From the IMG/VR virus record IMGVR_UViG_3300015360_000069, positions 1 to 47,184 of that record: DNA of 47,184 bases; one strand, given 5' to 3'. A model generated the notes under the pieces. It made no database searches. It saw nothing but the letters and a program-made list of their open reading frames with translations, and was not told the DNA's origin. Shown here in pieces: positions 1,142-25,225 of the stretch; the first letter of the stretch is position 1; each line of letters opens with the position of its first letter. The DNA comes from a virus. The position numbers and the translations under genes are program-made.

Positions 1142-1440
1142 CGGCGCGCGATCGGTTCTGGCATTCGGTGACGTTCGGCCAAGGCCAGCGGGCGCGCGTG
1201 CAAACGGTCATCTACTGGACGACGCCAGGCGCCGCGGCGCGCGAGTTGGCCGCGGTACGCGCGTCGCTTGTCGTGGCCGCTGGTCAGGGTCGCGGGTTGC
1301 AGGTCGCGACGATGGCGGCCTGGTCGCGCGACGCGATGACGCGGCACCGATGGCGGGCGCTGACCTCGGCGCGCGATCGGCTGTACGCGATGCGCCAGGC
1401 GAGGGAGGCGCGCGTGCTGCGGTGCCGGGTGCCGGCGTGA
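1138..1440 (+). CDS. Hypothetical basic protein, 100 aa
   Basis: The GTG start at 1138 sits in the GTGA overlap with the upstream stop, and its own stop overlaps the next GTG in the same way. The product is arginine-rich (for example M-T-R-H-R-W-R-A-L and R-D-R-L-Y-A-M-R-Q-A-R) and could bind nucleic acid, but no motif proves this. No family was recognised. Coupled starts at both ends support it as a real member of the rightward operon. Confidence 0.65.
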   Translation: MTARDRFWHSVTFGQGQRARVQTVIYWTTPGAAARELAAVRASLVVAAGQGRGLQVATMAAWSRDAMTRHRWRALTSARDRLYAMRQAREARVLRCRVPA

Positions 1441-1664
1441 AAGACGACGACGGCGGGCGGCTGGTGCTGTTCGCTGGGGCGGTGACTACCGCGGACGTGT
1501 TGCGCGAGGTGCGCGCGGCTGACCGCATGCGGCGACGGTTGGAACAACTCGAAGGGGTGAACGATGGCGAACTATTGGATGCAGGCGAACAACGGCGACG
1601 GCGACGTATTCACGACGGCGGATCCGTCCCATCATCCGGGAAGCAAGCGGATCGCGAAGGCTGA
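1437..1664 (+). CDS. Small hypothetical protein, 75 aa
   Basis: GTG at 1437 overlaps the upstream stop as GTGA. The N-terminal half (M-K-D-D-D-G-G-R-L-V-L-F-A-G) looks protein-like, and the middle is a basic helix (R-A-A-D-R-M-R-R-R-L-E-Q-L). Its last 100 bases overlap the next gene in another frame, so the C-terminal end (R-R-R-R-R-I-H-D-G-G) is constrained by, or is a by-product of, the gene at 1564. Support is the coupled start alone. It may be a short genuine protein. Confidence 0.5.
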   Translation: MKDDDGGRLVLFAGAVTTADVLREVRAADRMRRRLEQLEGVNDGELLDAGEQRRRRRIHDGGSVPSSGKQADREG

Positions 1665-2346
1665 AGGGGTGAGGCTCGATCGCGAGCAGTCGCGCGCAAC
1701 GCTGCGGGCGTTCTTCCCGCCAGGCTCAACGGCGTACACGGTCCTCCGCCATGTTTCGGCGTCTGGGATGTCGAGGCGGATCGGCGTGCTGTTCGCGGAG
1801 GGATCGAGGGTGCGCGACGTTTCGCACCTGGTCGCGCGTGCGCTCGGCGACAAGTTGAGCGACAAAGGCGGGATCGTCGTCGGCTGGTGCGGGATGGATA
1901 TGGGCTTTCACCTGGTCCATAACCTGTCGTCGGCGCTCTGGGGTAACGGGTACGAGTGCCTCGGCAAAGACGCGGACGGCCGGCGGTGCTGCCCGTCGAA
2001 CTATCACAGCAACCACCACGACAGCGTGAGATGTGAAGGCGTCGAGCGCGGCGGCGAGCGCTTGCGGTGCTATCAGCCGAACGTCTGGAACTCCCGTCAC
2101 GACGTGCCGGCGGGCTGGCCGCGGGTCGAGGTGCTGCCGGGGCGACTCGGCCAGGCGGACGGCGGAGCGGTCGCGGTCCTTGCGGCGTGCCTGTTCGCAC
2201 CGGCGGACGCGATGACCGAGGACGGCACGACGCGCGAGATCTGCCCGGCCTGCAAGGGTCACGGCTACCTACCGAACCCGGCAGGCCCGGAGCGCTTCGA
2301 CCTGGTCCACGCGGACGGCTACGCGCTGCGTCACGAGTGGGTGTAG
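1564..2346 (+). CDS. Conserved phage protein of unknown function (R-H-V-S-x-S-G-M-S-R family), 260 aa
   Basis: ATG 1564 follows the strong site GAAGGGGTGA. Residues about 47-72 read T-A-Y-T-V-L-R-H-V-S-A-S-G-M-S-R-R-I. This resembles a signature I recall from small conserved hypothetical proteins of many tailed phages, usually seen without assigned function. Further on are several Cys/His-rich stretches (R-R-C-C-P-S-N-Y-H-S-N-H-H) and a C-terminal C-P-A-C-K-G-H-G knuckle like half of a DnaJ-type zinc motif. Metal binding is therefore plausible. It is the largest protein of the rightward operon. Confidence 0.75.
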   Translation: MANYWMQANNGDGDVFTTADPSHHPGSKRIAKAEGVRLDREQSRATLRAFFPPGSTAYTVLRHVSASGMSRRIGVLFAEGSRVRDVSHLVARALGDKLSDKGGIVVGWCGMDMGFHLVHNLSSALWGNGYECLGKDADGRRCCPSNYHSNHHDSVRCEGVERGGERLRCYQPNVWNSRHDVPAGWPRVEVLPGRLGQADGGAVAVLAACLFAPADAMTEDGTTREICPACKGHGYLPNPAGPERFDLVHADGYALRHEWV

Positions 2347-2349
2347 GTC

Positions 2350-2613
2350 ATGCTCTACGAACTCACCAGCAATGCGGATCACGTCCGCATCATCGAGGGC
2401 CCCGCGCATCGTCGCGGTGCCCTTCCTATCGCGCTCACGGTCTGGATCGGCGAGGTGTGGCTACCAAGCCTGATCGCTCCGCGAGGCGCGAGAATCACAC
2501 ACGCGGACGTTTGCCACATCGAGCCCACGAAGCTATGGCGCGGCGGCGTGGCGGCGATGGGCAAGACCTCGCACGTTGCGCGCGTCTATCGGCCATCAGG
2601 CGGCGACCAGTGA
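2350..2613 (+). CDS. Hypothetical protein, 87 aa
   Basis: ATG at 2350 lies three bases after the preceding stop, with a weak TAGGT upstream, so translation probably depends on coupling. The first half is a mixed beta-like segment (I-A-L-T-V-W-I-G-E-V-W-L-P-S-L-I). There are no transmembrane segments or cysteine motifs and no recognised family. The stop overlaps the following GTG start by four bases (GTGA). Confidence 0.6.
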   Translation: MLYELTSNADHVRIIEGPAHRRGALPIALTVWIGEVWLPSLIAPRGARITHADVCHIEPTKLWRGGVAAMGKTSHVARVYRPSGGDQ

Positions 2614-2849
2614 CGGGCGACCAGGGCAACACGCGCGAGGCCATCACGCGGCGCATTCGAGAGCCGCGCGAGGCGGTCAAATGGTGGGCCGTGAAGCACT
2701 CTGGGTGCATCTGGATGGTCACGAGCCGGATAGCGGGCCAGGTTCCGAGTGAGTCGCGCGAGGGCGTGCGGTTCGCGCTCGTCGTCGGTCCATTCAACAC
2801 GAGACGCCAGGCGCACGGGTGCCGGCTGACCATGAGGGGGGAAGCATGA
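2610..2849 (+). CDS. Small basic hypothetical protein, 79 aa
   Basis: GTG at 2610 is in a GTGA overlap with the upstream stop. It opens with a charged helix (R-E-A-I-T-R-R-I-R-E-P-R-E-A) and then a tryptophan-containing beta-like core (V-K-W-W-A-V-K-H-S-G-C-I-W-M-V). Its own stop overlaps the next start (ATGA, 2846-2849). No family was recognised. The start was chosen from the overlap. The same frame is open far upstream, but that part is antisense or shadow to other genes. Confidence 0.6.
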   Translation: MTGDQGNTREAITRRIREPREAVKWWAVKHSGCIWMVTSRIAGQVPSESREGVRFALVVGPFNTRRQAHGCRLTMRGEA

Positions 2850-3484
2850 CGATCACCAACACGCGGAGCGAACTATCGGAGCGGCTCGGGCTACTGGTGG
2901 AGGCCGTAGGCGCGGCCGAGTACCGACACCAGAACGAGCGGTGGAACTACGTGCAGGCGCTGACAATGGCCTCGGCGTCGCTGCTGGCGTTCGGGCTCGG
3001 CTGGGTCCAGACGGCGGAGGCGGCGCGACTGTCGAACGTGCGGCGCGCGTGGCACGATCCGGTCTACGCGCTGCATGGGCTGGGCGACCTTGACGGGCGG
3101 GCGACACTGCGCCAGGCGTGCGGGCTGTGGCTCGGGCTCGCGCGGTCGAGCGAGGCGGCAGGCCATCGCGAGGCCTTCGGCACGTACGCGCAACACCACG
3201 CGCGGCTGATGGAGTGCGAGCTACCAGCAGCCGGCGGGCCGCGGGCGGATTGGCTGCGGCTGTTCGGCGTGCTCGAACGTGCCGACTACGGCAGCGGCGA
3301 GAGCGTCGCGAGCATCCTGCTTGCCTCGGCGCTGAACGATGGGCGGGTGACAGATGCGGAGCTGAGCGACGCGCGAGCGTTCGCGCTGGCGGCGCTGGCG
3401 GATGTCTTCGACCAGGTCCGCGAGGTGCTCGCGGTCGCGTACAACATGACACCACGTACGGCGCCCGATCCGCCGGTCGAGTGA
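2846..3484 (+). CDS. Hypothetical helical protein, 212 aa
   Basis: ATG 2846 was chosen over an in-frame ATG at 2819 because it is preceded by GAGGGGGGAAG and forms an ATGA overlap with the upstream stop. The protein appears all-helical, with alanine-rich stretches (A-L-T-M-A-S-A-S-L-L-A-F-G-L-G-W) and W/H-containing segments. The hydrophobic stretch near residues 35-50 is short and could be a buried helix rather than a membrane span. No family was recognised. The stop overlaps the following mini-gene (GTGA). Confidence 0.7.
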   Translation: MTITNTRSELSERLGLLVEAVGAAEYRHQNERWNYVQALTMASASLLAFGLGWVQTAEAARLSNVRRAWHDPVYALHGLGDLDGRATLRQACGLWLGLARSSEAAGHREAFGTYAQHHARLMECELPAAGGPRADWLRLFGVLERADYGSGESVASILLASALNDGRVTDAELSDARAFALAALADVFDQVREVLAVAYNMTPRTAPDPPVE

Positions 3485-4581: not shown

Positions 4582-5014
4582 GGCGCTCCCCCTTTCGACG
4601 GCCGAACTCCGCGATGAGCAGCGCGTCGGCGATGGCATGCGTGATTTTCAGGCTCGGGAACAGGGCCTGGGCCCGTGCCTTGCTGATGTTCTTGTCACCG
4701 CCGGTGCGGCACTGCATCACGTTCTGCCACTTCACCGGCGTCACCGCGTCGTAGGGGATCTCGAGCGCGGTCAGCGCCAGGCGCAGCCGGCCGTCGCTCT
4801 GGCCCATTTTGAACGCGGACTGCGAGCCGTTCTTGGGCATCGCGTGAATGAGTTCGAGGTAGGCGTGCGCGCCGCCGGCCGCATGCGGGCGGAGCAGGTC
4901 CACCAGGTCGCGGTCGGTGTCGGGCATCTTCCCGACCCAATGCACGTACCCATCGGGCTCGAGGATGGCGACGCCACCGCTGACACCAGGGTCGATGCCG
5001 ATCGTCCTGGTCAT
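4574..5014 (-). CDS. RuvC-like Holliday-junction resolvase, 146 aa
   Basis: The RNase H-fold start T-I-G-I-D-P-G-V-S-G-G (Asp8) is the signature of RuvC-type resolvases. An acidic residue follows in Y-L-E-L (Glu54), and the end H-A-I-A-D-A-L-L-I (His126, Asp130) matches the family's C-terminal active-site strand and helix. Phage members cut branched DNA during recombination and before packaging. ATG 5014 forms a TGATG overlap with the upstream stop. The stop lies inside the start of the endolysin gene. It fits with RecT and the YqaJ exonuclease encoded upstream in the same block. Confidence 0.85.
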   Translation of the reverse strand: MTRTIGIDPGVSGGVAILEPDGYVHWVGKMPDTDRDLVDLLRPHAAGGAHAYLELIHAMPKNGSQSAFKMGQSDGRLRLALTALEIPYDAVTPVKWQNVMQCRTGGDKNISKARAQALFPSLKITHAIADALLIAEFGRRKGERLV

Positions 5015-5256
5015 CACTGCACGTCCTTCCAGCCGGCGGCGTAGTCGTCCGACGCGCCCGGCCAGGTGAAGTTCCACTCGCGGCCGTACCGCGCGATCTC
5101 GTCGGCCCGCTGCTCGGCCTGGGCCTGCGCCTCGGCCGCGCGCAGATCCTCGGCAGTCGGCGACGTGACGTTGTAGATGACGCCGTGCGTGGACCAGGCG
5201 GGGTTCGCCAGGCGCAACCGCGTGTCGTCACGGAGCCACTTCGGAAGCCACAGCAT
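5014..5256 (-). CDS. Small hypothetical protein, 80 aa
   Basis: ATG 5256 (M-L-W-L-P-K-W-L-R-D-D) is preceded by AAAGGAG at ideal spacing, so it is preferred over the in-frame GTG eight codons upstream. The N-terminus is amphipathic with three tryptophan or leucine pairs, and the middle is a charged helix (E-D-L-R-A-A-E-A-Q-A-Q-A-E-Q-R-A-D-E). No family was recognised. It overlaps the previous gene by 29 bases and the resolvase start by one base. Confidence 0.65.
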   Translation of the reverse strand: MLWLPKWLRDDTRLRLANPAWSTHGVIYNVTSPTAEDLRAAEAQAQAEQRADEIARYGREWNFTWPGASDDYAAGWKDVQ

Positions 5257-5809
5257 TGGAGTCTCCTTTCGTTGTGACACCTGGTCCGGGCGCCTTGTGG
5301 CCCTTGACCGGAAAGACGTGCGCGCACTCCGGGCACTTCACATGCGCGCCGCTGTAGCCGTCACGCTTGCGCTCCACCACGAGCGTCCGCCGCGGGTTGC
5401 TCGAGGGCCTATCGACGCCGACCAGGCCGCGCGCAGTCGGCGGGTGCAGGTCGAAGTAGTGTTCAACGTCGTTCGCGAACCAGTGATTTTCAATCGCCAT
5501 CGAGAGCACGAGTAGCCGCGAGGTTTCATCCGGCTCGCGGAGCAGCGCGCGATGCGTGTCGAAGGACAGCAAGTCGTTGTTGCGACCACGCGGGAACGCG
5601 CGCCCCACGCGGCAGTAGTTCTCGAGCGTCGGCCGGGCACGCTGGAGAATGACCATCGAGCGCGCGAAGCACGGGTCGAAGGCCTTGCCCTGCCCCTCGG
5701 CGAGCCACCAGGCCATCTCCCAATTCGAGTTCTGCTCGCGACGCGCCACGAGCTTGCCGGCCTCGAGCCATACGGCCTGCTCATCCTCGACTCGGAGTCG
5801 CGCCGTCAC
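5228..5809 (-). CDS. Putative DNA-associated protein with C-terminal zinc knuckle, 193 aa
   Basis: GTG 5809 overlaps the preceding stop (GTGA). The middle, from W-E-M-A-W-W-L through F-P-R-G-R-N-N-D-L-L-S-F-D-T-H-R-A-L, resembles a helical segment I recall from phage and plasmid partition-type DNA-binding proteins, where L-S-F/W-x-H-H is followed by short helices. Near the C-terminus K-C-P-E-C-A-H-V-F-P-V-K-G-H could bind zinc. The DNA-related role is an inference from this weak resemblance and from the replication-gene neighbourhood. The first codons up to V-E-D-E-Q-A-V-W-L were retained because the overlap fixes the start. Confidence 0.6.
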   Translation of the reverse strand: MTARLRVEDEQAVWLEAGKLVARREQNSNWEMAWWLAEGQGKAFDPCFARSMVILQRARPTLENYCRVGRAFPRGRNNDLLSFDTHRALLREPDETSRLLVLSMAIENHWFANDVEHYFDLHPPTARGLVGVDRPSSNPRRTLVVERKRDGYSGAHVKCPECAHVFPVKGHKAPGPGVTTKGDSNAVASEVAP

Positions 5810-8448: not shown

Positions 8449-8880
8449 CTAGTTGTCCACGCTGAAGAGGGCCCCGGCGTCCGCGACGGCAAGGCGTTTG
8501 ACCCTGAAGATCAGCTCGGCGACGGTCGTCGCTGGTCGCTTCATGAAGGCGAAGTCGAGCAGGCGGGCGAGCGCGGCCCGTTCGGCGGCATCGTCCTCGA
8601 CCGGCTCGCTCTCGGCGATGAGTTCGGCGTAGCCCGTCGCGTGCGTGAGCAGCACGCTGATGAGGGCCTCGCCGTCCTGGTGGCGGAGGTCCATCAGGCA
8701 CAGCTTCGACAGGAGGCAGAGCACGGCGCCCTGGGGGTCGTCGCGCTCGAGCAGGGAGAGCGCCACGTTGATAGCGTGCGCCGTATCCGGGCTGGTGACA
8801 TCGCGGACGGCGTCCAGGTCGGCCTGGTTGAGCGGCGTCGCGTCCGGCACGGAGAGATGCTTCACGAGCTGCGGGCTCAC
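8449..8880 (-). CDS. Hypothetical helical protein downstream of RecT, 143 aa
   Basis: GTG 8880 overlaps the recT stop as GTGA, so the two are translationally coupled. The product seems all-alpha with long leucine-rich helices (I-N-V-A-L-S-L-L-E-R and L-C-L-L-S-K-L-C-L-M-D-L) and no catalytic motif. Proteins coupled to RecT are often accessory recombination factors, but this sequence was not recognised and such a role is a guess. Confidence 0.65.
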   Translation of the reverse strand: MSPQLVKHLSVPDATPLNQADLDAVRDVTSPDTAHAINVALSLLERDDPQGAVLCLLSKLCLMDLRHQDGEALISVLLTHATGYAELIAESEPVEDDAAERAALARLLDFAFMKRPATTVAELIFRVKRLAVADAGALFSVDN

Positions 8881-9803
8881 TGCTTGAGCTCAACGGGGAC
8901 GGCTTCCTTCGCGGCCACCTCGGCATCGAGCCCGGCCAGGTCGTCGTCCTGCTGCTGGTCCTCCGCGGCGCCGGTGCGCTGTGCCAGCTCCCCCTTGAGG
9001 GCGTCCACGCGGCTCGGACGGTCCATCGCCTTGACCGTCACCGCCTCGCCGTCACCGAGCTTCGTGCCGGCCGGCAGCTCGAGGTTCTGTGACAGGCCGA
9101 GGTCGGCCGCGTTGTCGAGGTCGAGCAGGCGCGACATGGCCTCGCTGCTCTTCGGCAGGTACTTCGAGATCTTGCGGATGGTCGTCTTGAGCGCCATTGC
9201 GTCGTAGTCGCTGACCCACGGGCCCGAGTCCTTGGCGCGCGACCGCTGCCGGTGCTCGTCAATCTCCGCCTTCGGCATCACCTCGAGCTGGAGCCCGCCA
9301 CCGCGCAACCGCGCCACGGCGTAGGCCGCGATGAAGTTGCCCGGCTTCTCGTGGGCGAGCATCCAGTACGGCTTGTGGCTGACGCGCGGCTGCGAGCCGA
9401 ACTCCACATCGAACTGGTCGTTCTGGTAGACGGCGCGCGGGTGCAGGTCCAGCGTCGCGCGAGCGCGGTCGATGAGATTCCGATACCCCATGTAGCCGGG
9501 GATGAACGTCGCTTCGTACTTGCCAGTGCGGCCGTTCTTGAATGGGATGAGCCAGGCCTCCTGCATCGGCCCGCCGAGGGTGAGCCCGAGCTTCAGCGCC
9601 TCGAACACGCCACCCATGAGCGACTCGTGGGTGCATTGCACCAGCTTCTCGTCGTAGCAGATCGCGTTGAACGCGATGCGGAGCAGGCGCGACGGGTCGC
9701 CCAGCGTCCGCGGCACGGCCTTCAGGATGTTGTCGTGGTTGATGGTCAGGAGCTGCTGCACGCCTTTGCTGCGCTCGTCCAGTCGGACTAGTTGATTCGC
9801 CAT
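8877..9803 (-). CDS. recT: RecT-family single-strand annealing protein, 308 aa
   Basis: The protein follows the RecT pattern: an N-terminal segment with P-R-T-L-G-D-P-S-R-L-L-R-I-A-F-N-A-I, then E-A-L-K-L-G-L-T-L, W-L-I-P-F-K-N-G, A-T-F-I-P-G-Y-M-G-Y-R-N-L, and later A-M-A-L-K-T-T-I-R-K-I-S-K-Y-L-P. These match family core positions of RecT/Redbeta annealases. It would coat and anneal single-stranded DNA made by the YqaJ-type exonuclease encoded at 12881. ATG 9803 was chosen because upstream in-frame sequence is shadow and AGGGA precedes it. The C-terminus is acidic and variable, as is usual for the family. Confidence 0.9.
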   Translation of the reverse strand: MANQLVRLDERSKGVQQLLTINHDNILKAVPRTLGDPSRLLRIAFNAICYDEKLVQCTHESLMGGVFEALKLGLTLGGPMQEAWLIPFKNGRTGKYEATFIPGYMGYRNLIDRARATLDLHPRAVYQNDQFDVEFGSQPRVSHKPYWMLAHEKPGNFIAAYAVARLRGGGLQLEVMPKAEIDEHRQRSRAKDSGPWVSDYDAMALKTTIRKISKYLPKSSEAMSRLLDLDNAADLGLSQNLELPAGTKLGDGEAVTVKAMDRPSRVDALKGELAQRTGAAEDQQQDDDLAGLDAEVAAKEAVPVELKQ

Positions 9804-9861
9804 GTGATTTGTCCCTGGGGAAAGGGAGCCCGCCGAGACGGGCCCCCGGTACTGCCCTACC

Positions 9862-10569
9862 CTACTCTTCGCTGTCTTCTGGGTCTTCGATGCTGCTGTC
9901 GCCGGGCGTCTCCTCCGCTGCATCCAGCGGGAGTTCTGGCGCGGCGTTGTTCTCGCCCTCGAGCGGTAGCTCCGCCTGGTCGCCGACGTCGTGCATGCGG
10001 CGCAGCGCGTGGAAGATGGCCGTGTCCACTTCCTCGACTCGGTCCTTCGCATGCTTGGCGGCGAGCTTCGCGCTCTCGTACTTCGACCGCGCCGTCACGG
10101 CCTGCTCGTACAGCTCACCGAGCCGGGCCAGGAGCGCCTTCGGGAGCGGCGGCGGCTCCCACGTCTGGAACAGCATCTGCTCGGCCCGATACCAGGCGCC
10201 GACGTCGCTGTCGCGGTCCTCGAGCTGCATCACCGGCAGGGCGCCGGTCGTCTGCTCTTCGGGCTTGCTGCATCGACGGACGCCTGCGAGCGCGCCGTTG
10301 ACCAGATCGATCGCCACCAGGTCGCCGGTCTTCACATGCCGGCGGAACTCCCGGTGGAACGTGAAGTGCGCCATCAGTAGCGGCGTTTCTCCTGCCACAC
10401 CGTCGAGCCCCTCGGCTGCTGCGCCGTCAGTCGCACCGGCGAGGGTCGATCCCCCGTCGTTCTCCGTGGATGCTGGTGGAGTCGATACCGGAAAGCCCTC
10501 GTCGGCCGGCACCTCCGCGGTCGGCTGTGGTCCTGCCTGGTCGTCGTCACCCCGTCGCTGCTTTGCCAT
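9862..10569 (-). CDS. Hypothetical protein with acidic tail and coiled-coil segment, 235 aa
   Basis: ATG 10569 forms a TGATG overlap with the preceding stop and has GAGGTGA upstream. The first 60 residues are low-complexity (A, P, T, E, G), followed by a beta-like domain (F-T-F-H-R-E-F-R-R-H-V-K-T-G-D-L-V-A-I-D). A charged helix (S-K-Y-E-S-A-K-L-A-A-K-H-A-K-D-R) and a very acidic tail follow. No family was recognised. Its place just ahead of recT suggests a DNA-metabolism accessory protein, but that is inference. Confidence 0.65.
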   Translation of the reverse strand: MAKQRRGDDDQAGPQPTAEVPADEGFPVSTPPASTENDGGSTLAGATDGAAAEGLDGVAGETPLLMAHFTFHREFRRHVKTGDLVAIDLVNGALAGVRRCSKPEEQTTGALPVMQLEDRDSDVGAWYRAEQMLFQTWEPPPLPKALLARLGELYEQAVTARSKYESAKLAAKHAKDRVEEVDTAIFHALRRMHDVGDQAELPLEGENNAAPELPLDAAEETPGDSSIEDPEDSEE

Positions 10570-12880: not shown

Positions 12881-13900
12881 TCACTCGTCCCCCTCGTCGC
12901 CCTCGGCCCCGTGCCGGCGCAGCACGCGGAACTCCGACTCCCGCACCTGGTGCGCCCGGCGGGTCTGATGGCGCCAGGAGTACGTCACGCCCTCGAGCAC
13001 GCCGACCGTCGCACCGCCGAGCGCGGCCTTGAGCTGATTGCTGGCCGCGCCCTTCAGCGCCTTCGCCTCCTTCGCGAGCGCCGATGCCAGCCGCATGTCC
13101 TTGTCCCACTGCGCGGCCTCGGCCGGCAGCTCCACCACTTCGCCCGTGTCCTTCGGGTACAGGCGCCCGAGCAGCTCCTTCGTGCTCTCGCTGCCATCGA
13201 CCGGCGGCGGGTTGCCGTTCAGGCAGCGCTCCCAGAACTCGATTTCGAGCTTACGGAGCATCGCGATCAGCTCGTCGTCGCGCTTGATGTCGGCCCACAT
13301 AAAGCGGTTGCCGCCGACCAGGGCCGCGATGCTCGCCCACTCGGCGCCCGTGACCATGAGCTGATGCTGGACCTGCACGGTGTACTCGATGGGCGGCTCC
13401 TGCGTCTCCTCCCAGAGCCGGCCCTTCGAGATGTCCACGTTCTTGACTTCGAGCACGCCAGGCTTGTAGAACACCGGCGGCTGCACGCGCTCGAAGCCGT
13501 CGTCGGCGACAGGCGTGAGCTGGTCGATGGGCAGCACGGTCGCGTCGGGCGAGGCCACCAGGAACGGCAGGGCGCCATCGCGCGCCAGGACGAAGCGGGC
13601 GGGCCCGATGACGTCGTGGTGGTCCTGCGGCTCGAGCAGCGCCGTTGCTGGGCCCACGGCGCGATGCGTGACGCGCTCGTAGCCGGCGATGATGGCGGGC
13701 TCGAGGGCCATGCCCCACTCGACAAACTCCACCTCACCAGGCGAGGGCTGGCGCATGCCGCGCTTCTCGTAGTAGAGCGTCAACGGGCTCTTCCACTTGC
13801 TGAGCCCGAGGATGACCGGCGCGTCGCTGCTGCCGATGCCAGTGCTGCGGGCGCCCAGCCACTGCGCGCGATCCGGGTACGTCTCAATCGTCGTTGCCAT
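12881..13900 (-). CDS. YqaJ-family viral recombinase (alkaline exonuclease), 339 aa
   Basis: The lambda-exonuclease/YqaJ fold residues are visible: G-I-G-S-S-D-A (21-27), Glu67 in M-A-L-E-P, Asp119 in A-S-P-D-A-T, and Glu151 and Lys153 in L-E-V-K-N. A later V-Q-H-Q-L-M-V-T-G matches the conserved Q-x-Q helix. Such enzymes digest one strand of double-stranded DNA ends, making the single strands that RecT anneals. The start is ATG 13900 after AGGAGAG. It lies 3 kb upstream of recT in the same direction, so the pair is in one block but not adjacent. About ten unrelated small genes lie between them. Confidence 0.9.
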   Translation of the reverse strand: MATTIETYPDRAQWLGARSTGIGSSDAPVILGLSKWKSPLTLYYEKRGMRQPSPGEVEFVEWGMALEPAIIAGYERVTHRAVGPATALLEPQDHHDVIGPARFVLARDGALPFLVASPDATVLPIDQLTPVADDGFERVQPPVFYKPGVLEVKNVDISKGRLWEETQEPPIEYTVQVQHQLMVTGAEWASIAALVGGNRFMWADIKRDDELIAMLRKLEIEFWERCLNGNPPPVDGSESTKELLGRLYPKDTGEVVELPAEAAQWDKDMRLASALAKEAKALKGAASNQLKAALGGATVGVLEGVTYSWRHQTRRAHQVRESEFRVLRRHGAEGDEGDE

Positions 13901-14599: not shown

Positions 14600-14908
14600 T
14601 CAGAGTCGGACGGTGAGGGCCTTCACGATGGCCTTGAAGAGCCGAGCGCGACGCTGCTCGTCGGGTGTGCCGCCGGCCTGGTCAGCGTCGGTGCCGTGAA
14701 TCTCCTTCAGCACCATCGTTTCCCAGCGGTCGCGCGTGTCGGCGTCCATCGACGGGTAGGGCTCGAGCGCGACGTAGTCCTCCTCAGTGACTTGCCCGCC
14801 CTGGTCGAACACATGGGCGGCGGCGTAGCAGACGGCGGCGATGGCGGCGATGTTGTGCTTGGGCATTGGTCCTCTTGCGTGTGGTGGTGGGACTTGGTAG
14901 TCGTTCAT
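14600..14908 (-). CDS. Hypothetical protein, 102 aa (alternative start at 14866)
   Basis: ATG 14908 lies three bases after the acb2 stop. An internal ATG at 14866 has a better AAGAGGA ribosome-binding site and would give 88 residues beginning M-P-K-H-N-I-A-A-I-A-A-V-C-Y-A. The rest is an acidic, helix-rich protein (T-E-E-D-Y-V-A-L-E-P-Y-P-S-M-D). No family was recognised. As the second gene of the promoter-proximal unit it should be expressed early with acb2. Confidence 0.55.
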   Translation of the reverse strand: MNDYQVPPPHARGPMPKHNIAAIAAVCYAAAHVFDQGGQVTEEDYVALEPYPSMDADTRDRWETMVLKEIHGTDADQAGGTPDEQRRARLFKAIVKALTVRL

Positions 14909-14911
14909 GGC

Positions 14912-15136
14912 CTAGACGGCGCCGACGAGCACGATGGCAGCGTTGGCGGTCATCACGGCCTCGCGGACGTGGCGGATCGCGGCCTGCTGGTCCGCGCACT
15001 GCGGCGTGTTCTCGATGATGGCCGCGGCGAGCGCCCTGCCGGCCTCGCGCACGGCGATGAGCTGCGTGTTGGCGAGCCCGCTTGGCGCGTGGTACGTGAA
15101 GACGTCGGCGAGGTTGTTCCTGGTGACTGGTGACAC
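14912..15136 (-). CDS. acb2: Acb2-family anti-CBASS protein (cyclic-nucleotide sponge), 74 aa
   Basis: The protein reads F-T-Y-H-A-P-S-G (13-20), A-V-R-E-A-G-R-A-L-A (28-37), then I-R-H-V-R-E-A-V-M-T-A-N-A-A-I (54-68). This matches the signature I know from Acb2 homologues: F-x-Y-H-x-P, then R-x-x-A, then E-x-V-M-x-A-N-A-A-I. Acb2 proteins bind cyclic di- and trinucleotides that CBASS systems use to trigger host death, and related members also blunt Thoeris. Length and all-helical hairpin design agree. GTG 15136 follows GGGAG with an 8-base spacer. It is the first gene after a strong promoter, fitting an early immune-evasion role. Which nucleotides it binds cannot be read from sequence. Confidence 0.8.
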   Translation of the reverse strand: MSPVTRNNLADVFTYHAPSGLANTQLIAVREAGRALAAAIIENTPQCADQQAAIRHVREAVMTANAAIVLVGAV

Positions 15137-15152
15137 TCGGTTTCTCCCTGGA

Positions 15153-15173
15153 GATGTAGGCCGTACATCGGCC
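15153..15173 (-). promoter_or_regulatory. Overlapping palindromes in the acb2 leader
   Basis: Two nested perfect inverted repeats lie between the promoter and acb2: GATGTA (15153-15158) with TACATC (15164-15169), and GGCCG (15159-15163) with CGGCC (15169-15173). They share sequence, so a transcript could form only one at a time, or a dimeric protein could bind here as a second operator. Function is unproved. Confidence 0.4.
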
Positions 15174-15184
15174 CGCGGGGAGCC

Positions 15185-15213
15185 ACTCTACAGCCAGTGT
15201 CACTTCGTGTCAA
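15185..15213 (-). promoter_or_regulatory. Sigma70 promoter for the acb2 / early leftward unit
   Basis: On the - strand a perfect -35 hexamer TTGACA (15213-15208) is separated by exactly 17 bases from TAGAGT (15190-15185), a four-of-six match to TATAAT. Transcription would begin roughly 48 bases before the acb2 GTG. It lies beyond a terminator-like hairpin that ends the preceding unit, as expected for a new transcription unit. Confidence 0.7.
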
Positions 15214-15222
15214 ATGACACTG
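15195..15222. promoter_or_regulatory. Operator-like nested palindrome covering the -35 box
   Basis: The outer arms are CAGTGTCA (15195-15202) and TGACACTG (15215-15222). A further GTGTCA (15207-15212) pairs with the same TGACAC to make a second palindrome, GTGTCA-AA-TGACAC. The TTGACA -35 box lies within it, so a bound repressor would block the promoter. Two more GTGTCA copies occur in the large intergenic region (46045-46050, 46061-46066). Confidence 0.6.
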
Positions 15223-15231: not shown

Positions 15232-15276
15232 CACGAAAGGCCCGTCCCCAGGGCGTACCAGGGACGGGCCTTCGTG
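15232..15276 (-). terminator. Terminator hairpin downstream of the gene at 15339
   Basis: Near-perfect arms CACGAAAGGCCCGTCCC and GGGACGGGCCTTCGTG (one extra A in the left arm) form a stem of about 16 bp with a 12-base loop. Read leftward, the stem ends in CCTTT and then CGTGTGTG, a short T-run. It lies between the unit ending at 15339 and the promoter that starts the acb2 unit. Stem sequence GAAGGCCCG recurs in the hairpin at 37683. Confidence 0.7.
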
Positions 15277-15338: not shown

Positions 15339-15563
15339 CTAGGCCTCGGGTGCGGGCTCCGCGGGCGTGTCCTTCTCGGCGGCGATGGCCTCGAGCTGGT
15401 CGGCAATCGCGTCGAACTCCTCCGACAGCTTCAGCTCCTCCCCGGCGTTCAGACCGTCCGGGTTCAGGACGGCCTCCTTCAGTGCGCGGATGCGCGCGGC
15501 GATCCCGTTGGTGGCGGTGTTGATGCGGTCGCGAATCACGTCGAACGTGCTCTTGTCAGTCAT
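15339..15563 (-). CDS. Small acidic helical protein, 74 aa
   Basis: ATG 15563 follows GGGAGAAACC, so earlier in-frame ATG codons were rejected. The chain M-T-D-K-S-T-F-D-V-I-R-D-R-I-N continues into a leucine/glutamate-rich helix (L-S-E-E-F-D-A-I-A-D-Q-L-E) and ends in an acidic E/P/A tail. No family was recognised. It is the last gene before the terminator at 15232. Confidence 0.65.
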   Translation of the reverse strand: MTDKSTFDVIRDRINTATNGIAARIRALKEAVLNPDGLNAGEELKLSEEFDAIADQLEAIAAEKDTPAEPAPEA

Positions 15564-15585: not shown

Positions 15586-16272
15586 CTACCAGCCATTGCG
15601 GAGGAACTCAATCCAGCCGCGGTGCCGCCAGTGATAGAAGAGGCTCGGGTCGTTGAGGATGCCGCTGTGCCCGATGCCCGGCACCTCGTCGTACCAGTTC
15701 TCGGAGCCGAAGTGGCGCTCGATGCGCACCTGCCCGTCGCCGATGCTGCCCCAGATCGCGGTCGTGTCGTACTCGCCGCGGACGTGCAGCCACTGCCCGA
15801 TGTTCGGTCGCGCCTGCTCGATGATGTCGCGCATGTCGCCCCTGATGGGCGTGCCGACCGTCACGAGCCGGTTGATTTTCAGGCCTCCCAGCGCGCACGC
15901 ATAGAAGACGACCTGCCCGCCGTGACTGTGTGCCACCAGGTTGCGTTCCGGCAGCTCGATGTAGTCGTCGCTCTCCTGCACGGGCCAGAGGTAGTACGAC
16001 AATGCGTAACCGCCAGCCATCCAGTCGCGATGCTTGTCCTTGAGGCCCAGCCAGCGGCGCCAGAAGCGATGGCCGTTCAGGTCGGTTGACCAGGTGAACG
16101 GCCGACGCTCGCTCAGGTGACAGAGGCCCTCGCGGTACATGAAGCGTTCGAACGTGCTTCCTGGTTGCCACCAGAGGCCCGTCTGCTCGCCGTCGTCGCC
16201 GTGCGTGCCTGGTATGGACACGTAGCACGCGCGGACGACGCGCTGCTCGGGCTGCGCGACGTCAGTCCTCAT
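15586..16272 (-). CDS. Alpha/beta-hydrolase (esterase/lipase-like), 228 aa
   Basis: The fold is suggested by I-P-G-T-H-G-D (20-26, oxyanion-type loop), the nucleophile elbow A-H-S-H-G-G with Ser116, a beta strand L-V-T-V-G-T-P (136-142), Asp169, and a late G-I-G-H-S-G with His202. Together these fit a Ser-Asp-His triad in which the classic GXSXG is AHSHG. Phage enzymes of this fold can act as tail-linked esterases or, as LysB, cut envelope esters at lysis. This one lies between lysis-type membrane genes and the early region, so either is possible. ATG 16272 overlaps the upstream stop (ATGA). No signal peptide is visible. Confidence 0.75.
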   Translation of the reverse strand: MRTDVAQPEQRVVRACYVSIPGTHGDDGEQTGLWWQPGSTFERFMYREGLCHLSERRPFTWSTDLNGHRFWRRWLGLKDKHRDWMAGGYALSYYLWPVQESDDYIELPERNLVAHSHGGQVVFYACALGGLKINRLVTVGTPIRGDMRDIIEQARPNIGQWLHVRGEYDTTAIWGSIGDGQVRIERHFGSENWYDEVPGIGHSGILNDPSLFYHWRHRGWIEFLRNGW

Positions 16273-18268: not shown

Positions 18269-18599
18269 CTTGGAGTCGTCTCATGGCGGCTGGGTCGCGG
18301 CCGACCATGACTTGCAGCGTGTTGTTGATCTCGTGCAGCGAGCGGCGCACTCGCCGTAGGTTAGAAATGACCCAATAGAAGAACGCAGCCAGCGGCACCA
18401 TGATGACGACGAATAACAGCCCGAGTTCGAGGCTATTCAGTGTCATTCCGACCATGCTGCCCCCGACAGCCGGCGGAAGCGCCACTACCATCCAGCCGGC
18501 CTGTTGCAGCTCCATCGCGGGTGCCTTGAGCAGCGCCCAGGGGCTCGCCAGTGCGTCTACCTTGCGGACGACGTCACTGAAGCTCGAGGCGAGATTCAT
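18228..18599 (-). CDS. Membrane protein, holin-like candidate, 123 aa
   Basis: ATG 18599 follows GGAGGAGCG and overlaps the giant-protein stop (ATGA). A strong transmembrane helix lies around residues 58-78 (L-G-L-L-F-V-V-I-M-V-P-L-A-A-F-F), and a weaker hydrophobic stretch around 35-52. The C-terminus is basic (R-R-V-R-R-S-L and R-E-R-L-T-R-T-R-Q-R), as in many holins. The assignment as holin is an inference from topology and position only. Confidence 0.5.
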   Translation of the reverse strand: MNLASSFSDVVRKVDALASPWALLKAPAMELQQAGWMVVALPPAVGGSMVGMTLNSLELGLLFVVIMVPLAAFFYWVISNLRRVRRSLHEINNTLQVMVGRDPAAMRRLQDAHRERLTRTRQR

Positions 18600-21500
18600 C
18601 GCTCCTCCTGCTGGAAGCGCTCATCGAACTCCGCGCGACGACTGAGCGGCACCTGGCGCCGGGCGCGCTCGAGCGGCGAGCGCTTGCGGTCACGGAGGAA
18701 GTCGCTCTGCTGACGCCGGCTGAGGGCGCGCATGGCCTCGCCCGCGGCCTCGTTGTCGTCCTGCGCGATGGCGAGCCCGGCCTTCCGGCGGGCCTGGCGC
18801 GAGTCGATGCCCGACTCCCGGCGCGACTCCTGTGCGAACTCGTACATCTCGCTCTCCTGCTTGCGAGTTTCGGCCCTGTTGGTCGTCTCGATGCCAAAGA
18901 GCGAAAGCAAGTCCTCGTCCTCTGACACCTCGCGGAGTTGCTGGCCTTTCCTGCCGACGATGGGTCGCGCTTCCCCCGACCTGTTCAGGATGGCTGCACC
19001 CTTGTTGATGTACCGCGGGAAGACGCGGTCCTCGGTGCCGCCAATCTCCATGTGCTCTTCGAAGTCGTGGTCCGGGGCGCCGACCGCGTGGTCGATGACG
19101 TCCAGCGCGATGCTCGGGCCCGGCAGTCCGCCCATCCTCGGCCAGAAGAAATTCATCCACTCGACGCCACTGATGGCGCTCGCACCGACGATGCCGGTCG
19201 CCATGCCCAGGAACCGCATCTTGACCTTGGCGTCCGGGTGCGTCGCGACGTCCTCGAGCATCGACGCCCACAGGGTCGGGTACTTCGTGAAGACCTTCAG
19301 CGGGCCCAGGTTGCGGTGGAACGGGTTGGAGCCCAGCTCGCCGGCCACGCCCTGCGTCTGCCCGATGAGGGTCCGCGCGAAGTCCTCGGCCTTCTCCTTG
19401 CTCATGCCGCGCTTGGCGGCGTAGTCCAGCGCGCCGGCCCAGGTCGCCCGCCGGTTGCCCGAGTCCGACCAGGACATCGGCTTCTGGCTCAGGTCGAGGT
19501 ACTTCTCGACCCAGGGGTGGAACAGCTTCTCCTCGTCGTGGCCCATCGGGCGCGCCACGTTGAGGAACTTCAGCTCCTGCCGGCCGGCGGTCGTGTACGC
19601 CTTCACGATGCCCTTGACGGTGCTCTTCACGCCGATCTGCGGGATGTTCATCAGCGCCTGCGTCATGTTGGCGAGGCCCGAGTCGAGGGCCCAGCCGAGC
19701 AGGTTGTGGTAGATGGCGTTGGTCGCGATGGCGTTCGCCTGGCGGATGGTCTTGACGCTGACCTTGCCGCTCGTCGCCTCGCTCACCTGGCGCTCCATCC
19801 ACGTCGGCTTGTTCGACAGCTCGTCATGCAGCGCGTCGATGTACTTCATCCGCCGGTAGTGGCCCTTGTTCGCGCTCTTGCGGGAGTCCACATCGAGCGC
19901 CGTGAGGGCCTCCTCGAGCTTCGCCCGGCGAGCGACGCGGGCCTCGAAGACGGTGTCCGCGCCGTTGTCGATGTTGCGGATGTCCTCCATGATCGGCTCG
20001 ATGTGCTTCCACAGGTCGGGCACGACCTTGTCGGGCGACCAGAACTTCATCGCGAGCCCGGAGATGTCCTTGTCCAGCGACGGTGCGCGGCGGACCTGCG
20101 TCACGGCGTTGTACTCGCCGCGCGACAGGAGCCGGCCCGTTTCCATCGTCTCCTTGAGGGCCTTGGCGAACGTCGGGGCCTTGCCCTTGAGCGCCCTGGC
20201 GAGGCCTGGCAGCTTGCCGGCGCCGTACCCAGCCGCGGCGCCGAGCACCATGTTGTCGAGGAACGACGCTTCGTCCTCCTCCGACGTGGCGGCACCGTAG
20301 AACGCGCCGCCGGCCGTACGGACGGCTGACCACACGGCCGCGGGGTTCTTCTTGTACAGGTTCTCGAGGCCTTCCATGCCGGCGCCGAGGCCCTCGAGCT
20401 TCAGCGAGCCGCTCTCGTCTTCGAACAGCCGCTGGACAATCTTCGTGGCGCGCTCGAGCACGTCGTCGGCGGAGTCCTCGAGGGCGCCTTCCGACCGACC
20501 CAGCGCTACGGCCTTGGGGTCGTTGACGCCTCCACTCGGGGTGTCGCCGAAGAGCCCGCCGGACTGGAAGAGGTCTTCGTCGCCGCTGTCCGGGCGTCCG
20601 ACTCCACCAGCGACATCACCCGCTCCTCCTCCTGGTCCGCTCGGGGGTCGGCCGGTGTAGTCGGCGTCCAGTGCTTCTGCGATGCGGTCGCTGGCTTTGC
20701 CGAAGCTGATGCGTCCTGCTTTGTAGTCATCGAAGGCCTCCTGGATGGCGGTCCTGGTGTACGAGCCCTGCGCGTTGCTGAACTTCGACCACAGCTCCTC
20801 GGCGCGGCCGGCGGCACTCGCCACCTTGCCCGCGGCGTCTCGGTCGATCTTGGTATCGCCGACTGACTCGAGGGTGTCGGCCGCGGAGCCGGCCTTGCCG
20901 AACAGGCGGCGGTTCGTGCGGAACGACGAGATGACGCGCTCCTTGAACGCGACCAGCTCCTTGAACGTGTCATCGACGGTGGTGTTGCCGAACATGTCCG
21001 TCTGCACGCCACCACTTCGCAGCTCCGCGGCCTGCGCGAGCAGGGCCTCGGCCTCGGTGTTCGTGCGCGGCTTGTGGCGATCGAGCTGCTGAATCAGCCC
21101 CTCTTGCAGCTCGGGCCGATACGCGCTGACCATGCGGACAAAGCGCGGGTCGAGGTCACTGTCGATGTAGTAGTCGAAGGCCTTGTCGGAGAGCTTCGCG
21201 ATGTCGCGACCCTGCTTGAACTTCTCCCCGGCGTCCTTCTCGATGCGGCCGATGCGGCGCTGCTCGGACGGCGTCAGCTCGCCCTCGCGGAGCACGCGAG
21301 CGATGTCGCGCGGGTCCGCGGTGTTGTGCATCATGTTGGCGAGCGCACCCTGGCGTCGGGCCCGCTCCACCGTCACGCCCTCCGACTCGTTGAGCACCCG
21401 CGCGTTGAGGTCGGGCACGTCCTTGCCCGCGGCCTTCAGGTCTTGCGCGAGGCCGACGCGCTGATGGCCGTCCACGACGTACACCGAGCCATCGAGACGA

Positions 21501-24500
21501 CGATGCAGGAGCACCGGCGAGAGCAGCGCCTGGTCGGCGTCCCACTCCTCCACGCCCTTCAACTTCGTGCTGCGTCCGCGGCTGTCGCTCTCCCCCTTGA
21601 ACTGGTACTCCTTCGGGGAAACCTTGATGTCCTCGGGCGCGATGCGCTCGTAGTCAGTCGCGCTGGTCTTCGGCGTCGCGGATGGCTCGATACCGGCGTT
21701 GGGCGTCGCGCCGCCTGGCGAGTTCGGCGTCTCGGGCGTCGAAGTCGTCGAGGGCTTGGAATCGGTCGAACCACTCATCGGCGGGTTCGACGTGGTCGCT
21801 GCGTCGGGCGCGTCCGCGGAGGGCCTCGAGGGCGCCTCCGCTTGGGGAGGGTTTGCCGGCGGCACCTCCGGGTCGCTCGAGGGGCGCAGCTCCATGTCGC
21901 CACGCATGCCCGATGCCTTGGGCGCGTTCCACACGCGACGGCCGGCGTCGTTCTTGGTCTGCGTCCATCCCAGGTTGCGGAGGATGCCGCGGCGCGTGTC
22001 GCGCACAGCCGCGTCGGGGTCGAGGTCGCGGTCGAGCATCTCGCTCTTGTTCGCCTCGGGCACCCACTGGCCGCGCTCGGCGGTCGCGGCGGTCGCACGC
22101 TGTGAGCCGGCGTCGGCGACGATGCCACGCTGGGCGCTCTCCGTGCTCTCGCCGCGGAGGATGGCCTGCGCGGCGCCATCGACATCCTCGGGCGTGAGCT
22201 TGGACCCAGCCGGGATCTTGAAACTCCACTTCTGCTTCCACGGCAGGTAGCGGAAACCGTACTCGGTGAGCGCGGCGCGAATCGACTCGTGCGGGGCGCG
22301 CTCGAAGGTGACGTCCACGGCGTCGTTCTCGCCGAACTTCGTGCGCTCCACTCTGGGCGGCGTCGTCGGGCCCACGGCGGGTTCCTCGGGCGTCGCGGCT
22401 ACGGGCTCCGGTGCGTCCGCTACAACGGCTTCAGGCGGCTGTCCGGCCGCTGCCCTGGCCTCCGCCCTGGCCGTCGCCGCAGTCTCGCGCTCGGCCTTCT
22501 TGGCAGCGATGCCCGCGAGGCGCTCCTGCTCCTTCGCCTGCTTCGCGGCCACCTGGCTCTCGCGCACCTCGGCGAGTTCCTTCGACCAGGTCTTCGGCGT
22601 CTTGCCGCCGTTGGCCTTCACGACCTGGTACGTGCCGTCCGCCTTGCGGATGACCAGGTTCTTGTTCTTCCCCGGCTCCTGGCTGCGCCAGTCGTCGCCG
22701 AGCTTCGCGAACTTGCCGGCCTGGTTGATGGTGCCGGGCGTGTCGCCGTCGCCGAGCACGATGCCCTCGGCCTCGGGGATGCTCGCGGCTACTGCGGGCG
22801 CGGCGGGCGCGGGCGTCTCCGGTGCTGCGGCCACGGGAAGCGGCTCGGTGTCGAACAGCTCCTCCTTTCGCACGGGCGGCGTCGGGACGTCCTCGAGCAC
22901 GATGCGGTCAAGCTCGGAGGGCTCGGCGCCGTTGAGCACCGGCGGCTCAACTTCCGCTTTTGCGGTCGGCTTTGCGGTGGGCACCTTGCCGCCGTTGTCC
23001 TCCTGAATGGTGTAGCTGCCATCGGCGTTCCTGATGGCGAGCGTCTGCCCTTTCTGCGGATGCACGTCCACGCCGTCAACGCCGAGCACCGGCGTCTCGC
23101 GGCCGGCGCGGTCGAGCATCACGCGGGTCTGCCCTGCGGCCTTCAGGCTCCGGGCGCGGTTCATGGCCTCGGTGCTGGCGCCCGACTCGCCACTCGCGTT
23201 GTTCTGCGTCGTCGCGGCCTCGGGGTCGAGCAGCTCCACGACGGGGTCTTCGACGGGCGCGGGCGCCGCGGCGGCGTCCTGATCGTCGGCCTGGCGCAGC
23301 AGGGCCTCGAGTTCTTCGTCGCCGAAGGGTGCGGCCTCGTCGGAGGCAACAGCCAGCGGCGGGGTCGGGTCTGGTGCGAACGTCGTGCCGGGCTCGGCGA
23401 TGATGCCTGGCGCCGGCTGCATGTCCTCCTGCGGCGAGGCGAAGCGGGTCGTCTCCGAGTCCGCGCGCACCACGGGCACGTCGGGCGGCGGCGTCGCGCG
23501 CTCGGCCCGCACCTGGTTGAGCAGCTCCGCCATCAGCGGGTCGTCCATCGCGGACGGCGGTGCGATGGGCTGCGCGGCGCGCGGCGCGCTCGCGGACATC
23601 TCCGGGCTGAAGTCGGCGAACTGCTCGGGCGACATCCGAATCGGCTGCGGCTTGCCCTGGTAGAACACCTCGATGTTCTTGCCGTCGAAGCGGACGCGCT
23701 CGGGCGTGCCGAACAGCGGGTTGGACATGCCCTTCGCCAGCGCGGGCGGCACCGGCGCCTCGAACGGCTGCATGACCATCGGGCCCTCGGCCGCGGTTGG
23801 CGCAACAGGGTCCGGGAGGTTGTTGACGTCCTCCATCGCGGCGAAGAACTCGTCACGCGCGGGGTTGCTGATGCGCGCGTCGCGCTCGGGCGGCACGAAG
23901 GGCTCGGCGGTCTGCGCGGGCGGCGAGTCGGCGGCGAAACGGCCTCGAGGTAGCTCGGGCCCGGTGGGCGGCGGAGACGGGACCGGCAGCGGCGCGGGCG
24001 GGTTGGCGTCCAGCTCCGCCAGCATCTGCTCGAGCGACGGGCCGGCAGGCGGTGCCATGCGCGGCGCCGGCACGCCTGGCGGCTGCGCGGTCGGGTCGCC
24101 GGCCGGACCCTGGTACGGGTTGCTCGGGTCGAGGATGTCGGTGATGACGGGGCCCTGCCCTGGCGCGACCTGCGTGCCGAGCACCTCGGGCGGCGCCTGG
24201 GGCGGCAGTCTGCTTTCCGGCATCGCGAACGGATGCGCGGGCGGGTTGTTCTGCTCGAGCAGCTTCGGGCCCGTGGGCGCCTCGGGCGTCGCCGTGCGCT
24301 GCCGCGGCGCGGAGCCTCGCACGGAGCCGGGCCTGGTCCCGGGCGTCTCGTTGAACCAGGCGGAGCCCTGGTCGGCGAAGGCCTGGTCGGTTTCCGGTTG
24401 CCACGGCGCGGCGTCGGGCTGCTTGGGCCACGACGACACCGGGCCCTCGGCGGGCGTCGGGCGAGCCCGGAGGCCTGCACCTGTGACGGCGGATCCGGCG

Positions 24501-25225
24501 CGCTTGCCGAGCGCCAGCATCGCGCCGATTGGGGCGCCCATGCCGACACCGAGGCCGGCGTCCAGCATCAGGCCGTCACGGTCGAAGGCAGCGTCGATGT
24601 CGCCCGCGTCGAACGCGCGAGTGAATGCGCCCTGCGCCACGTTCGGCACGGCGCCCTCCACCGACCCAGCGAGCGCACCGACACCAGCGCGCGTCACCTT
24701 GCCGGCGAGCTTGGCGGCGAGCGAGGTCGCGGCAGAGGCCGGCGCGTCCTTCAGCATGCCCGTCAGCGGGTTCATGCTGGCGATTTTCCCGAACGCGGTC
24801 GAGGTCGCCACCTTGCCGATCGAGCGCGTCACGTCGCCGAGGGTCGAGCCACCTTGCGCGAGCGGCTTGCCGTCCAGGTGCGCGATGGCCTCGAGGCCCT
24901 GGGCGATGCCTTCGCCGATGCCGGCGCCCATGCCGGTGAAGCCGCTGGCAACGCGAATCGGCGTGGCGGCGGAGTCGGCGAGCGCGCCGACCACGCCGAC
25001 GTCGCTCTGCCACGCGCGCTTGAGTGGGTTCTGCTGCTGGCGAAGCTGACTCGCCTCGATGTCGGCCCTCGCGCGGCCGGTGGCATCGGGGTCGCTCGGC
25101 AGCGAGCCGGCGAAGTCCTTCGTGTCGGCGAGGAGCTGGTCCACGTCCCAGATGTCCTGGGGCGCGGTGGGCATCTTCGTCGGCCGATTCTTCAGGGCTC
25201 CGAGGGCGGTCAGCTTGGGTGGCAT
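18596..25225 (-). CDS. Giant ejected-type (polyvalent) virion protein with DdrB/ParB-like domain, 2209 aa
   Basis: By far the largest protein. The N-terminal third is alanine/glycine-rich with hydrophobic glycine stretches, then a long proline-rich linker (about residues 260-450). Two related short modules, N-A-D-G-S-Y-T-I-Q-E-D-N-G-G-K-V-P near 725 and K-A-D-G-T-Y-Q-V-V-K-A-N-G-G-K-T-P near 860, look like an internal repeat. Near 990 is Y-G-F-R-Y-L-P-W-K-Q-K-W, a small domain of a known repeat type. Around 1190-1500 is a ParB-like domain with V-V-D-G-H-Q-R-V-G-L near 1250, resembling the DdrB-ParB domain of P1-type antirestriction proteins. The rest is helical. The role inferred is ejection with DNA, protecting or modifying it. 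It starts directly after the upstream TAA. Confidence 0.7.
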   Translation of the reverse strand: MPPKLTALGALKNRPTKMPTAPQDIWDVDQLLADTKDFAGSLPSDPDATGRARADIEASQLRQQQNPLKRAWQSDVGVVGALADSAATPIRVASGFTGMGAGIGEGIAQGLEAIAHLDGKPLAQGGSTLGDVTRSIGKVATSTAFGKIASMNPLTGMLKDAPASAATSLAAKLAGKVTRAGVGALAGSVEGAVPNVAQGAFTRAFDAGDIDAAFDRDGLMLDAGLGVGMGAPIGAMLALGKRAGSAVTGAGLRARPTPAEGPVSSWPKQPDAAPWQPETDQAFADQGSAWFNETPGTRPGSVRGSAPRQRTATPEAPTGPKLLEQNNPPAHPFAMPESRLPPQAPPEVLGTQVAPGQGPVITDILDPSNPYQGPAGDPTAQPPGVPAPRMAPPAGPSLEQMLAELDANPPAPLPVPSPPPTGPELPRGRFAADSPPAQTAEPFVPPERDARISNPARDEFFAAMEDVNNLPDPVAPTAAEGPMVMQPFEAPVPPALAKGMSNPLFGTPERVRFDGKNIEVFYQGKPQPIRMSPEQFADFSPEMSASAPRAAQPIAPPSAMDDPLMAELLNQVRAERATPPPDVPVVRADSETTRFASPQEDMQPAPGIIAEPGTTFAPDPTPPLAVASDEAAPFGDEELEALLRQADDQDAAAAPAPVEDPVVELLDPEAATTQNNASGESGASTEAMNRARSLKAAGQTRVMLDRAGRETPVLGVDGVDVHPQKGQTLAIRNADGSYTIQEDNGGKVPTAKPTAKAEVEPPVLNGAEPSELDRIVLEDVPTPPVRKEELFDTEPLPVAAAPETPAPAAPAVAASIPEAEGIVLGDGDTPGTINQAGKFAKLGDDWRSQEPGKNKNLVIRKADGTYQVVKANGGKTPKTWSKELAEVRESQVAAKQAKEQERLAGIAAKKAERETAATARAEARAAAGQPPEAVVADAPEPVAATPEEPAVGPTTPPRVERTKFGENDAVDVTFERAPHESIRAALTEYGFRYLPWKQKWSFKIPAGSKLTPEDVDGAAQAILRGESTESAQRGIVADAGSQRATAATAERGQWVPEANKSEMLDRDLDPDAAVRDTRRGILRNLGWTQTKNDAGRRVWNAPKASGMRGDMELRPSSDPEVPPANPPQAEAPSRPSADAPDAATTSNPPMSGSTDSKPSTTSTPETPNSPGGATPNAGIEPSATPKTSATDYERIAPEDIKVSPKEYQFKGESDSRGRSTKLKGVEEWDADQALLSPVLLHRRLDGSVYVVDGHQRVGLAQDLKAAGKDVPDLNARVLNESEGVTVERARRQGALANMMHNTADPRDIARVLREGELTPSEQRRIGRIEKDAGEKFKQGRDIAKLSDKAFDYYIDSDLDPRFVRMVSAYRPELQEGLIQQLDRHKPRTNTEAEALLAQAAELRSGGVQTDMFGNTTVDDTFKELVAFKERVISSFRTNRRLFGKAGSAADTLESVGDTKIDRDAAGKVASAAGRAEELWSKFSNAQGSYTRTAIQEAFDDYKAGRISFGKASDRIAEALDADYTGRPPSGPGGGAGDVAGGVGRPDSGDEDLFQSGGLFGDTPSGGVNDPKAVALGRSEGALEDSADDVLERATKIVQRLFEDESGSLKLEGLGAGMEGLENLYKKNPAAVWSAVRTAGGAFYGAATSEEDEASFLDNMVLGAAAGYGAGKLPGLARALKGKAPTFAKALKETMETGRLLSRGEYNAVTQVRRAPSLDKDISGLAMKFWSPDKVVPDLWKHIEPIMEDIRNIDNGADTVFEARVARRAKLEEALTALDVDSRKSANKGHYRRMKYIDALHDELSNKPTWMERQVSEATSGKVSVKTIRQANAIATNAIYHNLLGWALDSGLANMTQALMNIPQIGVKSTVKGIVKAYTTAGRQELKFLNVARPMGHDEEKLFHPWVEKYLDLSQKPMSWSDSGNRRATWAGALDYAAKRGMSKEKAEDFARTLIGQTQGVAGELGSNPFHRNLGPLKVFTKYPTLWASMLEDVATHPDAKVKMRFLGMATGIVGASAISGVEWMNFFWPRMGGLPGPSIALDVIDHAVGAPDHDFEEHMEIGGTEDRVFPRYINKGAAILNRSGEARPIVGRKGQQLREVSEDEDLLSLFGIETTNRAETRKQESEMYEFAQESRRESGIDSRQARRKAGLAIAQDDNEAAGEAMRALSRRQQSDFLRDRKRSPLERARRQVPLSRRAEFDERFQQEER

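Follow-up and report, generated by a model that had tools for sequence, protein, structure and literature searches.

The window, meaning the whole stretch of DNA analysed, is an entire virus record of 47,184 bases with about 66–73% GC. Its leftward late genes end at 15339, and beyond them lie a control region and an early unit that contain the following features. Several assignments draw on L105, a locus in a 51.6-kb record of a related phage whose head protein (L113) is 91% identical to that of the window, its RecE 64% and its RecT 76%.

15237–15272, no strand: strong hairpin (12 of 12 arm positions paired), probable terminator, between the late-gene end and the early promoter
15195–15222, no strand: candidate operator, inverted repeat CAGTGTCACTT-6-AAATGACACTG over the −35 element (0.00 expected)
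15185–15213, minus strand: sigma-70-like promoter TTGACA-17-TAGAGT (10 of 12 matches; mean 0.0 in shuffles)
15143–15157 (endpoints approximate), minus strand: leader with Shine-Dalgarno region (CATCTCCAGGGAGA), from the alignment with L105
14912–15136, minus strand: gene of a probable Acb2/Tad1-hairpin sponge, 74 amino acids, GTG start (PF24729, codon usage, AlphaFold2, Foldseek)
14600–14866, minus strand: second gene of the unit, function not assigned, 48% identity with the gene that comes first after this promoter in L105
14279–14596, minus strand: small CI/XRE-like helix-turn-helix (HTH) protein, candidate regulator of the operator (HTH_3 below cut-off; 58% identical in L105)
12881–13900, minus strand: RecE-like exonuclease (phrog_434, 8e-74; YqaJ)
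8877–10052, minus strand: RecT-family annealing protein (TIGR00616, 2.7e-39; phrog_148, 1.8e-57)

The original prediction had placed the 74-residue gene first in an early leftward unit that heads toward an HTH protein, an exonuclease and RecT, and this arrangement was confirmed. The hairpin at 15237–15272 separates the gene from the late genes, the promoter and a Shine-Dalgarno region (CAGGGAGA) precede its GTG, and it is followed on the same strand by the second gene, the CI/XRE-like protein, the RecE-like exonuclease, RecT and a DnaD-like loader. RecT lies ~5 kb from the sponge gene, and its true start is probably further in than that of the ORF as listed. Comparison with L105 also suggests that the second gene probably starts at an internal ATG at 14866 and not at 14908. 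The stretch around the hairpin folds with −39.9 kcal/mol (z −4.3); the terminator scan did not list the hairpin because it has no long T run.

The promoter had further been called repressible, which can be upheld as far as probable regulation: pattern and conservation support a strong sigma-70-like promoter that is probably repressible, given the repeat over the −35 element, its core in L105 and the CI/XRE-like protein in the operon. This operator core (15197–15217), in which TGACAC units stand 10 bp apart, matches L105 at 21 of 21 bases and occurs once in each of the two genomes, and no further copies of the repeat were found elsewhere in the genome, leaving a single site. As the outer palindrome arm is not conserved in L105, where only the part with the TGACAC units is kept, binding to direct repeats is as likely as binding to a palindrome. 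The candidate regulator was predicted by AlphaFold2 with a pLDDT of 86–89 over residues 11–70, and Foldseek matched it to TP901-1 CI, P22 C2 and other XRE domains (probability up to 0.98). Because a direct scan for relatives of the HTH protein found none, its role as regulator is argued from one homolog and the fold.

A coding gene of the hairpin family

The region 14912–15136 is a real gene read in its true coding frame. Its translation, VSPVTRNNLADVFTYHAPSGLANTQLIAVREAGRALAAAIIENTPQCADQQAAIRHVREAVMTANAAIVLVGAV, contains the predicted F-x-Y-H-A-P and E-A-V-M-x-A-N-A-A-I motifs as F13-T-Y15-H16-A-P18 and E59-A-V-M62-T-A-N65-A-A-I68. Under a codon model derived from the securely identified genes of the window, the frame reaches log-odds of +45 with a third-position GC of 0.95, while all five ORFs overlapping it on either strand score clearly negative. 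In relatives, too, the gene is overlapped by antisense ORFs; we rejected these as a mirror of the conserved coding strand.

Membership of the product in the Acb2/Tad1 hairpin family is supported by Pfam PF24729 (Acb2_Tad1_hairpin), which matches residues 14–68 with 33.9 bits (E 3.7e-8; curated gathering cut-off 27 bits) and scores 33.5 bits in the gene's own full record; T4 Vs.4, a tested Acb2, matches the same family with 71 bits. The product is thus an additional member of an already known family. It is also matched by phrog_1454 (4e-10; function not assigned there), whereas PADLOC and NCBIfam searches returned no match. The two motifs had been read as signatures of Acb2 proteins: the family stands through Pfam, but the motifs belong to a subfamily, since the tested T4 Vs.4 has GYKP and EASMWACRAVF instead. 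Neither phmmer with the protein nor hmmsearch with the subfamily profile (alignment A1, 46 sequences) found an Acb2 chain among PDB sequences, both returning chance helical proteins, and hhalign of the subfamily against the T4-type family profile gave a probability of 11% (E 0.0027). The tie of the subfamily to the tested proteins runs through Pfam. The profile of a bridging alignment (A3) did find Vs.4 and p26 in PDB but was discarded as not independent, because A3 includes T4-type members.

AlphaFold2 on A1 (monomer; pLDDT 94) places helices at residues 9–12, 20–43 and 48–69 and no strands in the product, and this predicted fold, a short helix followed by a hairpin of two helices, is the Acb2 architecture. 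The first PDB match in Foldseek is 9ptq, “Acb2 homolog 43 in complex with 3'cADPR” (rmsd 1.2 over 55 columns, TM 0.68/0.72, probability 0.94, E 1.2), followed by T4 Vs.4 (probability 0.57–0.63 for two chains), and in the viral library each of the first eleven matches carries the name Acb2/Tad1 hairpin (probability 1.00, TM 0.74–0.86 by query length). The structural comparison that had been proposed as a check therefore returned the expected helical hairpin. As the PDB E-values (1.2 and 2.3) are weak, which is expected for a 74-residue hairpin and not decisive by itself, we place the weight on Pfam, fold and ranking jointly. Among the solved relatives, Acb2 homolog 43 is a 76-residue chain similar in length to the product but only 14% identical, and it lacks F-x-Y-H in the aligned stretch. 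T4 Vs.4 and the PaMx33-type Acb2 p26 are likewise small phage genes encoding a short helix and an anti-parallel hairpin (PF24729 in T4 Vs.4), although T4 Vs.4 is 16% identical to the product, whose hairpin loop is shorter. With Tad1 the product has in common the C-terminal hairpin domain to which the Pfam family name refers, whereas the N-terminal beta-sheet of Tad1 is absent from the predicted model.

Relatives and a related phage without the gene

By tblastn, 112 relatives were found in viral contigs, and scanning bacterial and archaeal genomes gave 11 loci, which lie in metagenome-assembled genomes (MAGs) of Acidobacteriota, Planctomycetota, Caulobacterales and others; the nearest among isolates belongs to Tunturiibacter phage Tunturi_1 (48%). 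In A1, residues D49, R55, R58, M62, T63, A64, N65, A66 and A67 are invariant, and F13, Y15, H16, P18 and R30 nearly so, the invariance of the VMTANAAI stretch being partly an artefact of the search patterns. Mycobacterium phage Myrna gp211 and Lactococcus phage 1706 orf70, found by other routes, retain MTANAGV and MFANAGI. Together with Tunturi_1 gp101 they have the same F-x-Y-H-x-P-type motifs, reach 68–107 bits with the A1 profile and are annotated as hypothetical; Myrna gp211 differs from the 74-residue product by a C-terminal extension.

Across phages the genes sit in unrelated neighbourhoods, and a search for a conserved partner gene around the relatives found none, the best-shared groups being genes of single phage lineages. 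Several relatives have genes of replication, recombination or packaging type within a few kb, and 1706 orf70 directly follows an exonuclease gene.

The clearest comparison is offered by L105 (4555–4800, against 14867–15215 of the window). It has the same −35/repeat core with the conserved TTGACA and a matching leader, CATCT-CCAGGGAGA, and this leader runs directly into the homolog of the window's second gene, the sponge gene being absent. PF24729 and A1 searches found no match in the L105 record, which may be incomplete but fully covers the site. The two phages thus differ by a segment of ~280 bp that holds just the sponge gene and was either gained in the window phage or lost in L105. Clean absence at the same site, combined with unrelated neighbourhoods elsewhere, is the pattern that an exchangeable counter-defence gene would leave, and the pair points to a slot for such genes that lies behind the conserved early promoter and leader and ahead of the first core gene. 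L105 in turn carries a different extra gene (4962–5303, 113 amino acids) between the second gene and the HTH gene, which the window lacks; the early operon seems to be modular. Immune evasion as the opening task on entry, which had been proposed from the arrangement of the unit, would go further than gene order, and the phage of L105 manages without the gene.

Pocket residues and candidate ligands

Taken together, the gene probably encodes an early-made signal sponge of the Acb2/Tad1 hairpin family that binds a nucleotide second messenger. The small all-helical protein would be made first, from the early promoter, and would bind a messenger that a host abortive-infection defence produces upon infection, holding it without cutting so that the host effector stays off. 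Oligomerisation, binding and sequestration are assumed here by analogy with the family, and the CI/XRE-like protein, encoded two genes downstream, would probably tune the unit through the repeat over the −35 element.

Sponges of the hairpin group can hold different kinds of signal, and Acb2 homologs vary in range; Tad1, which shares the hairpin domain and has an N-terminal beta-sheet, sequesters gcADPR as well as CBASS nucleotides (PMC12043709). In T4 Acb2, Y8A disrupts cyclic-dinucleotide binding and F82 stacks on the ligand (PMC12657218), while T68M lowers binding (PMC12657230). The joint alignment pairs T4 Y8 with Y15 of the product, K23 with R30, T68 with R55, W76 with T63 and F82 with V69. 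The lysine at the K23 position reportedly lies in the cyclic-dinucleotide pocket of PaMx33 Acb2. The conserved Tyr and Lys pocket positions of Acb2 are therefore present in the product, Lys as Arg, and conservation is among the strongest at positions that correspond to ligand contacts: of 67 distinct relatives, 63 have Y15, 65 have R30 and 66 have Arg at R55. The T68 position is Thr in both T4 Vs.4 and PaMx33-type p26 but Arg in the product. Although loss of the F82 aromatic might suggest a changed ligand, we rejected this argument: the residue at that position is small in p26 too, and p26 is a tested CBASS sponge. This leaves T68 to R55 as the telling change. Two tested proteins are too few to make this Thr family-defining, so the change lowers the case for a CBASS Acb2 and not that for a hairpin sponge. 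As judged from the alignment, the frame of the pocket is retained and its lining is altered.

The altered lining and the 3'cADPR-bound nearest fold make CBASS just one of two live targets. The product had been predicted as an Acb2-type anti-CBASS protein, of which the hairpin family holds, but the label “anti-CBASS” overreaches; the best reading is a nucleotide-signal sponge with a CBASS or a TIR/Thoeris ligand, a CBASS cyclic di- or trinucleotide being slightly ahead of a cyclic ADP-ribose signal. We put a strict CBASS sponge, an Acb2 binding cyclic di- and/or trinucleotides, at somewhat under an even chance. It is favoured by PF24729 in common with T4 Vs.4, by the retained Y8/K23 positions and by the Acb2/Tad1 names of the viral structural neighbours, and is weakened by the Arg that replaces the Thr of both tested binding sites, by the Thoeris signal in the best PDB fold and by a subfamily profile that has no direct sequence link to tested Acb2. 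That same 3'cADPR complex, the changed pocket and the breadth of Tad1 argue for a sponge of a TIR/Thoeris signal (2'cADPR, 3'cADPR or a related ADP-ribose derivative) or of both kinds, a reading we hold to be possible but less probable: 9ptq is distant in sequence and without the Y-H motif in the aligned stretch, a fold does not fix the ligand, and the product has no Tad1 beta domain.

A hairpin reused for another early-phage role such as DNA metabolism or regulation, with signal binding lost, appears unlikely. The replication, recombination and packaging type genes near several relatives and the exonuclease gene before 1706 orf70 are what such a role might predict, but these neighbourhoods are not common across relatives, L105 lacks the gene at this site, and the ligand-contact positions are among those best conserved. 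A fortuitous match to a hairpin of two helices, or an ORF that is no gene, might be suspected from the weak Foldseek E-values that short helical proteins give; codon usage, a Pfam score above the curated cut-off and many relatives in independent contigs already refute this reading, which we consider extremely improbable.

If the sponge reading is right, the record adds a counter-defence gene of known family to phages that infect mostly uncultured bacteria, a setting in which signal-based immunity has received little study; through the conserved but altered pocket one could ask directly which alarm molecules these hosts employ. Tentatively, the F-x-Y-H-x-P/MTANAAI proteins might form a widespread branch of hairpin sponges whose pocket (Y15, H16, R30, R55, R58, T63 and N65) has been rebuilt for a signal other than that of the tested Acb2 proteins, for example a TIR-made ADP-ribose derivative or an undescribed messenger.

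Late genes and other regions of the record

The late genes include the following, all leftward:

43245–44735, leftward: terminase
40120–42507, leftward: portal
37748–39058, leftward: major head protein
31137–32978, leftward: internal virion protein

Among some 50,000 phage records the major head protein finds a single, distant match (34%), and the terminase reaches ~28% identity in its best matches among phage records, which indicates that no close relative is cultured. The sponge-gene region has no DNA similarity to isolated phages, and tRNA and Rfam searches of the window found none.

Four other regions are recorded here as observations. On the minus strand, a single ORF of 2209 amino acids (18596–25225) that has a strong coding signal and matches no Pfam family lies in a podovirus-like structural region, and an 826-residue protein (28099–30579) with a right-handed beta-helix region is a likely tail spike. 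At the end of the late unit, 15586–16272 (minus strand) has a weak alpha/beta-hydrolase match below cut-off, is 64% identical in L105 and perhaps encodes a lysis or host-envelope esterase. At the left end, four coding-like ORFs (262–3484, plus strand) run opposite to nearly all else and have no clear family; one of them, 1564–2346 (plus strand), matches phrog_12365 (function not assigned there).
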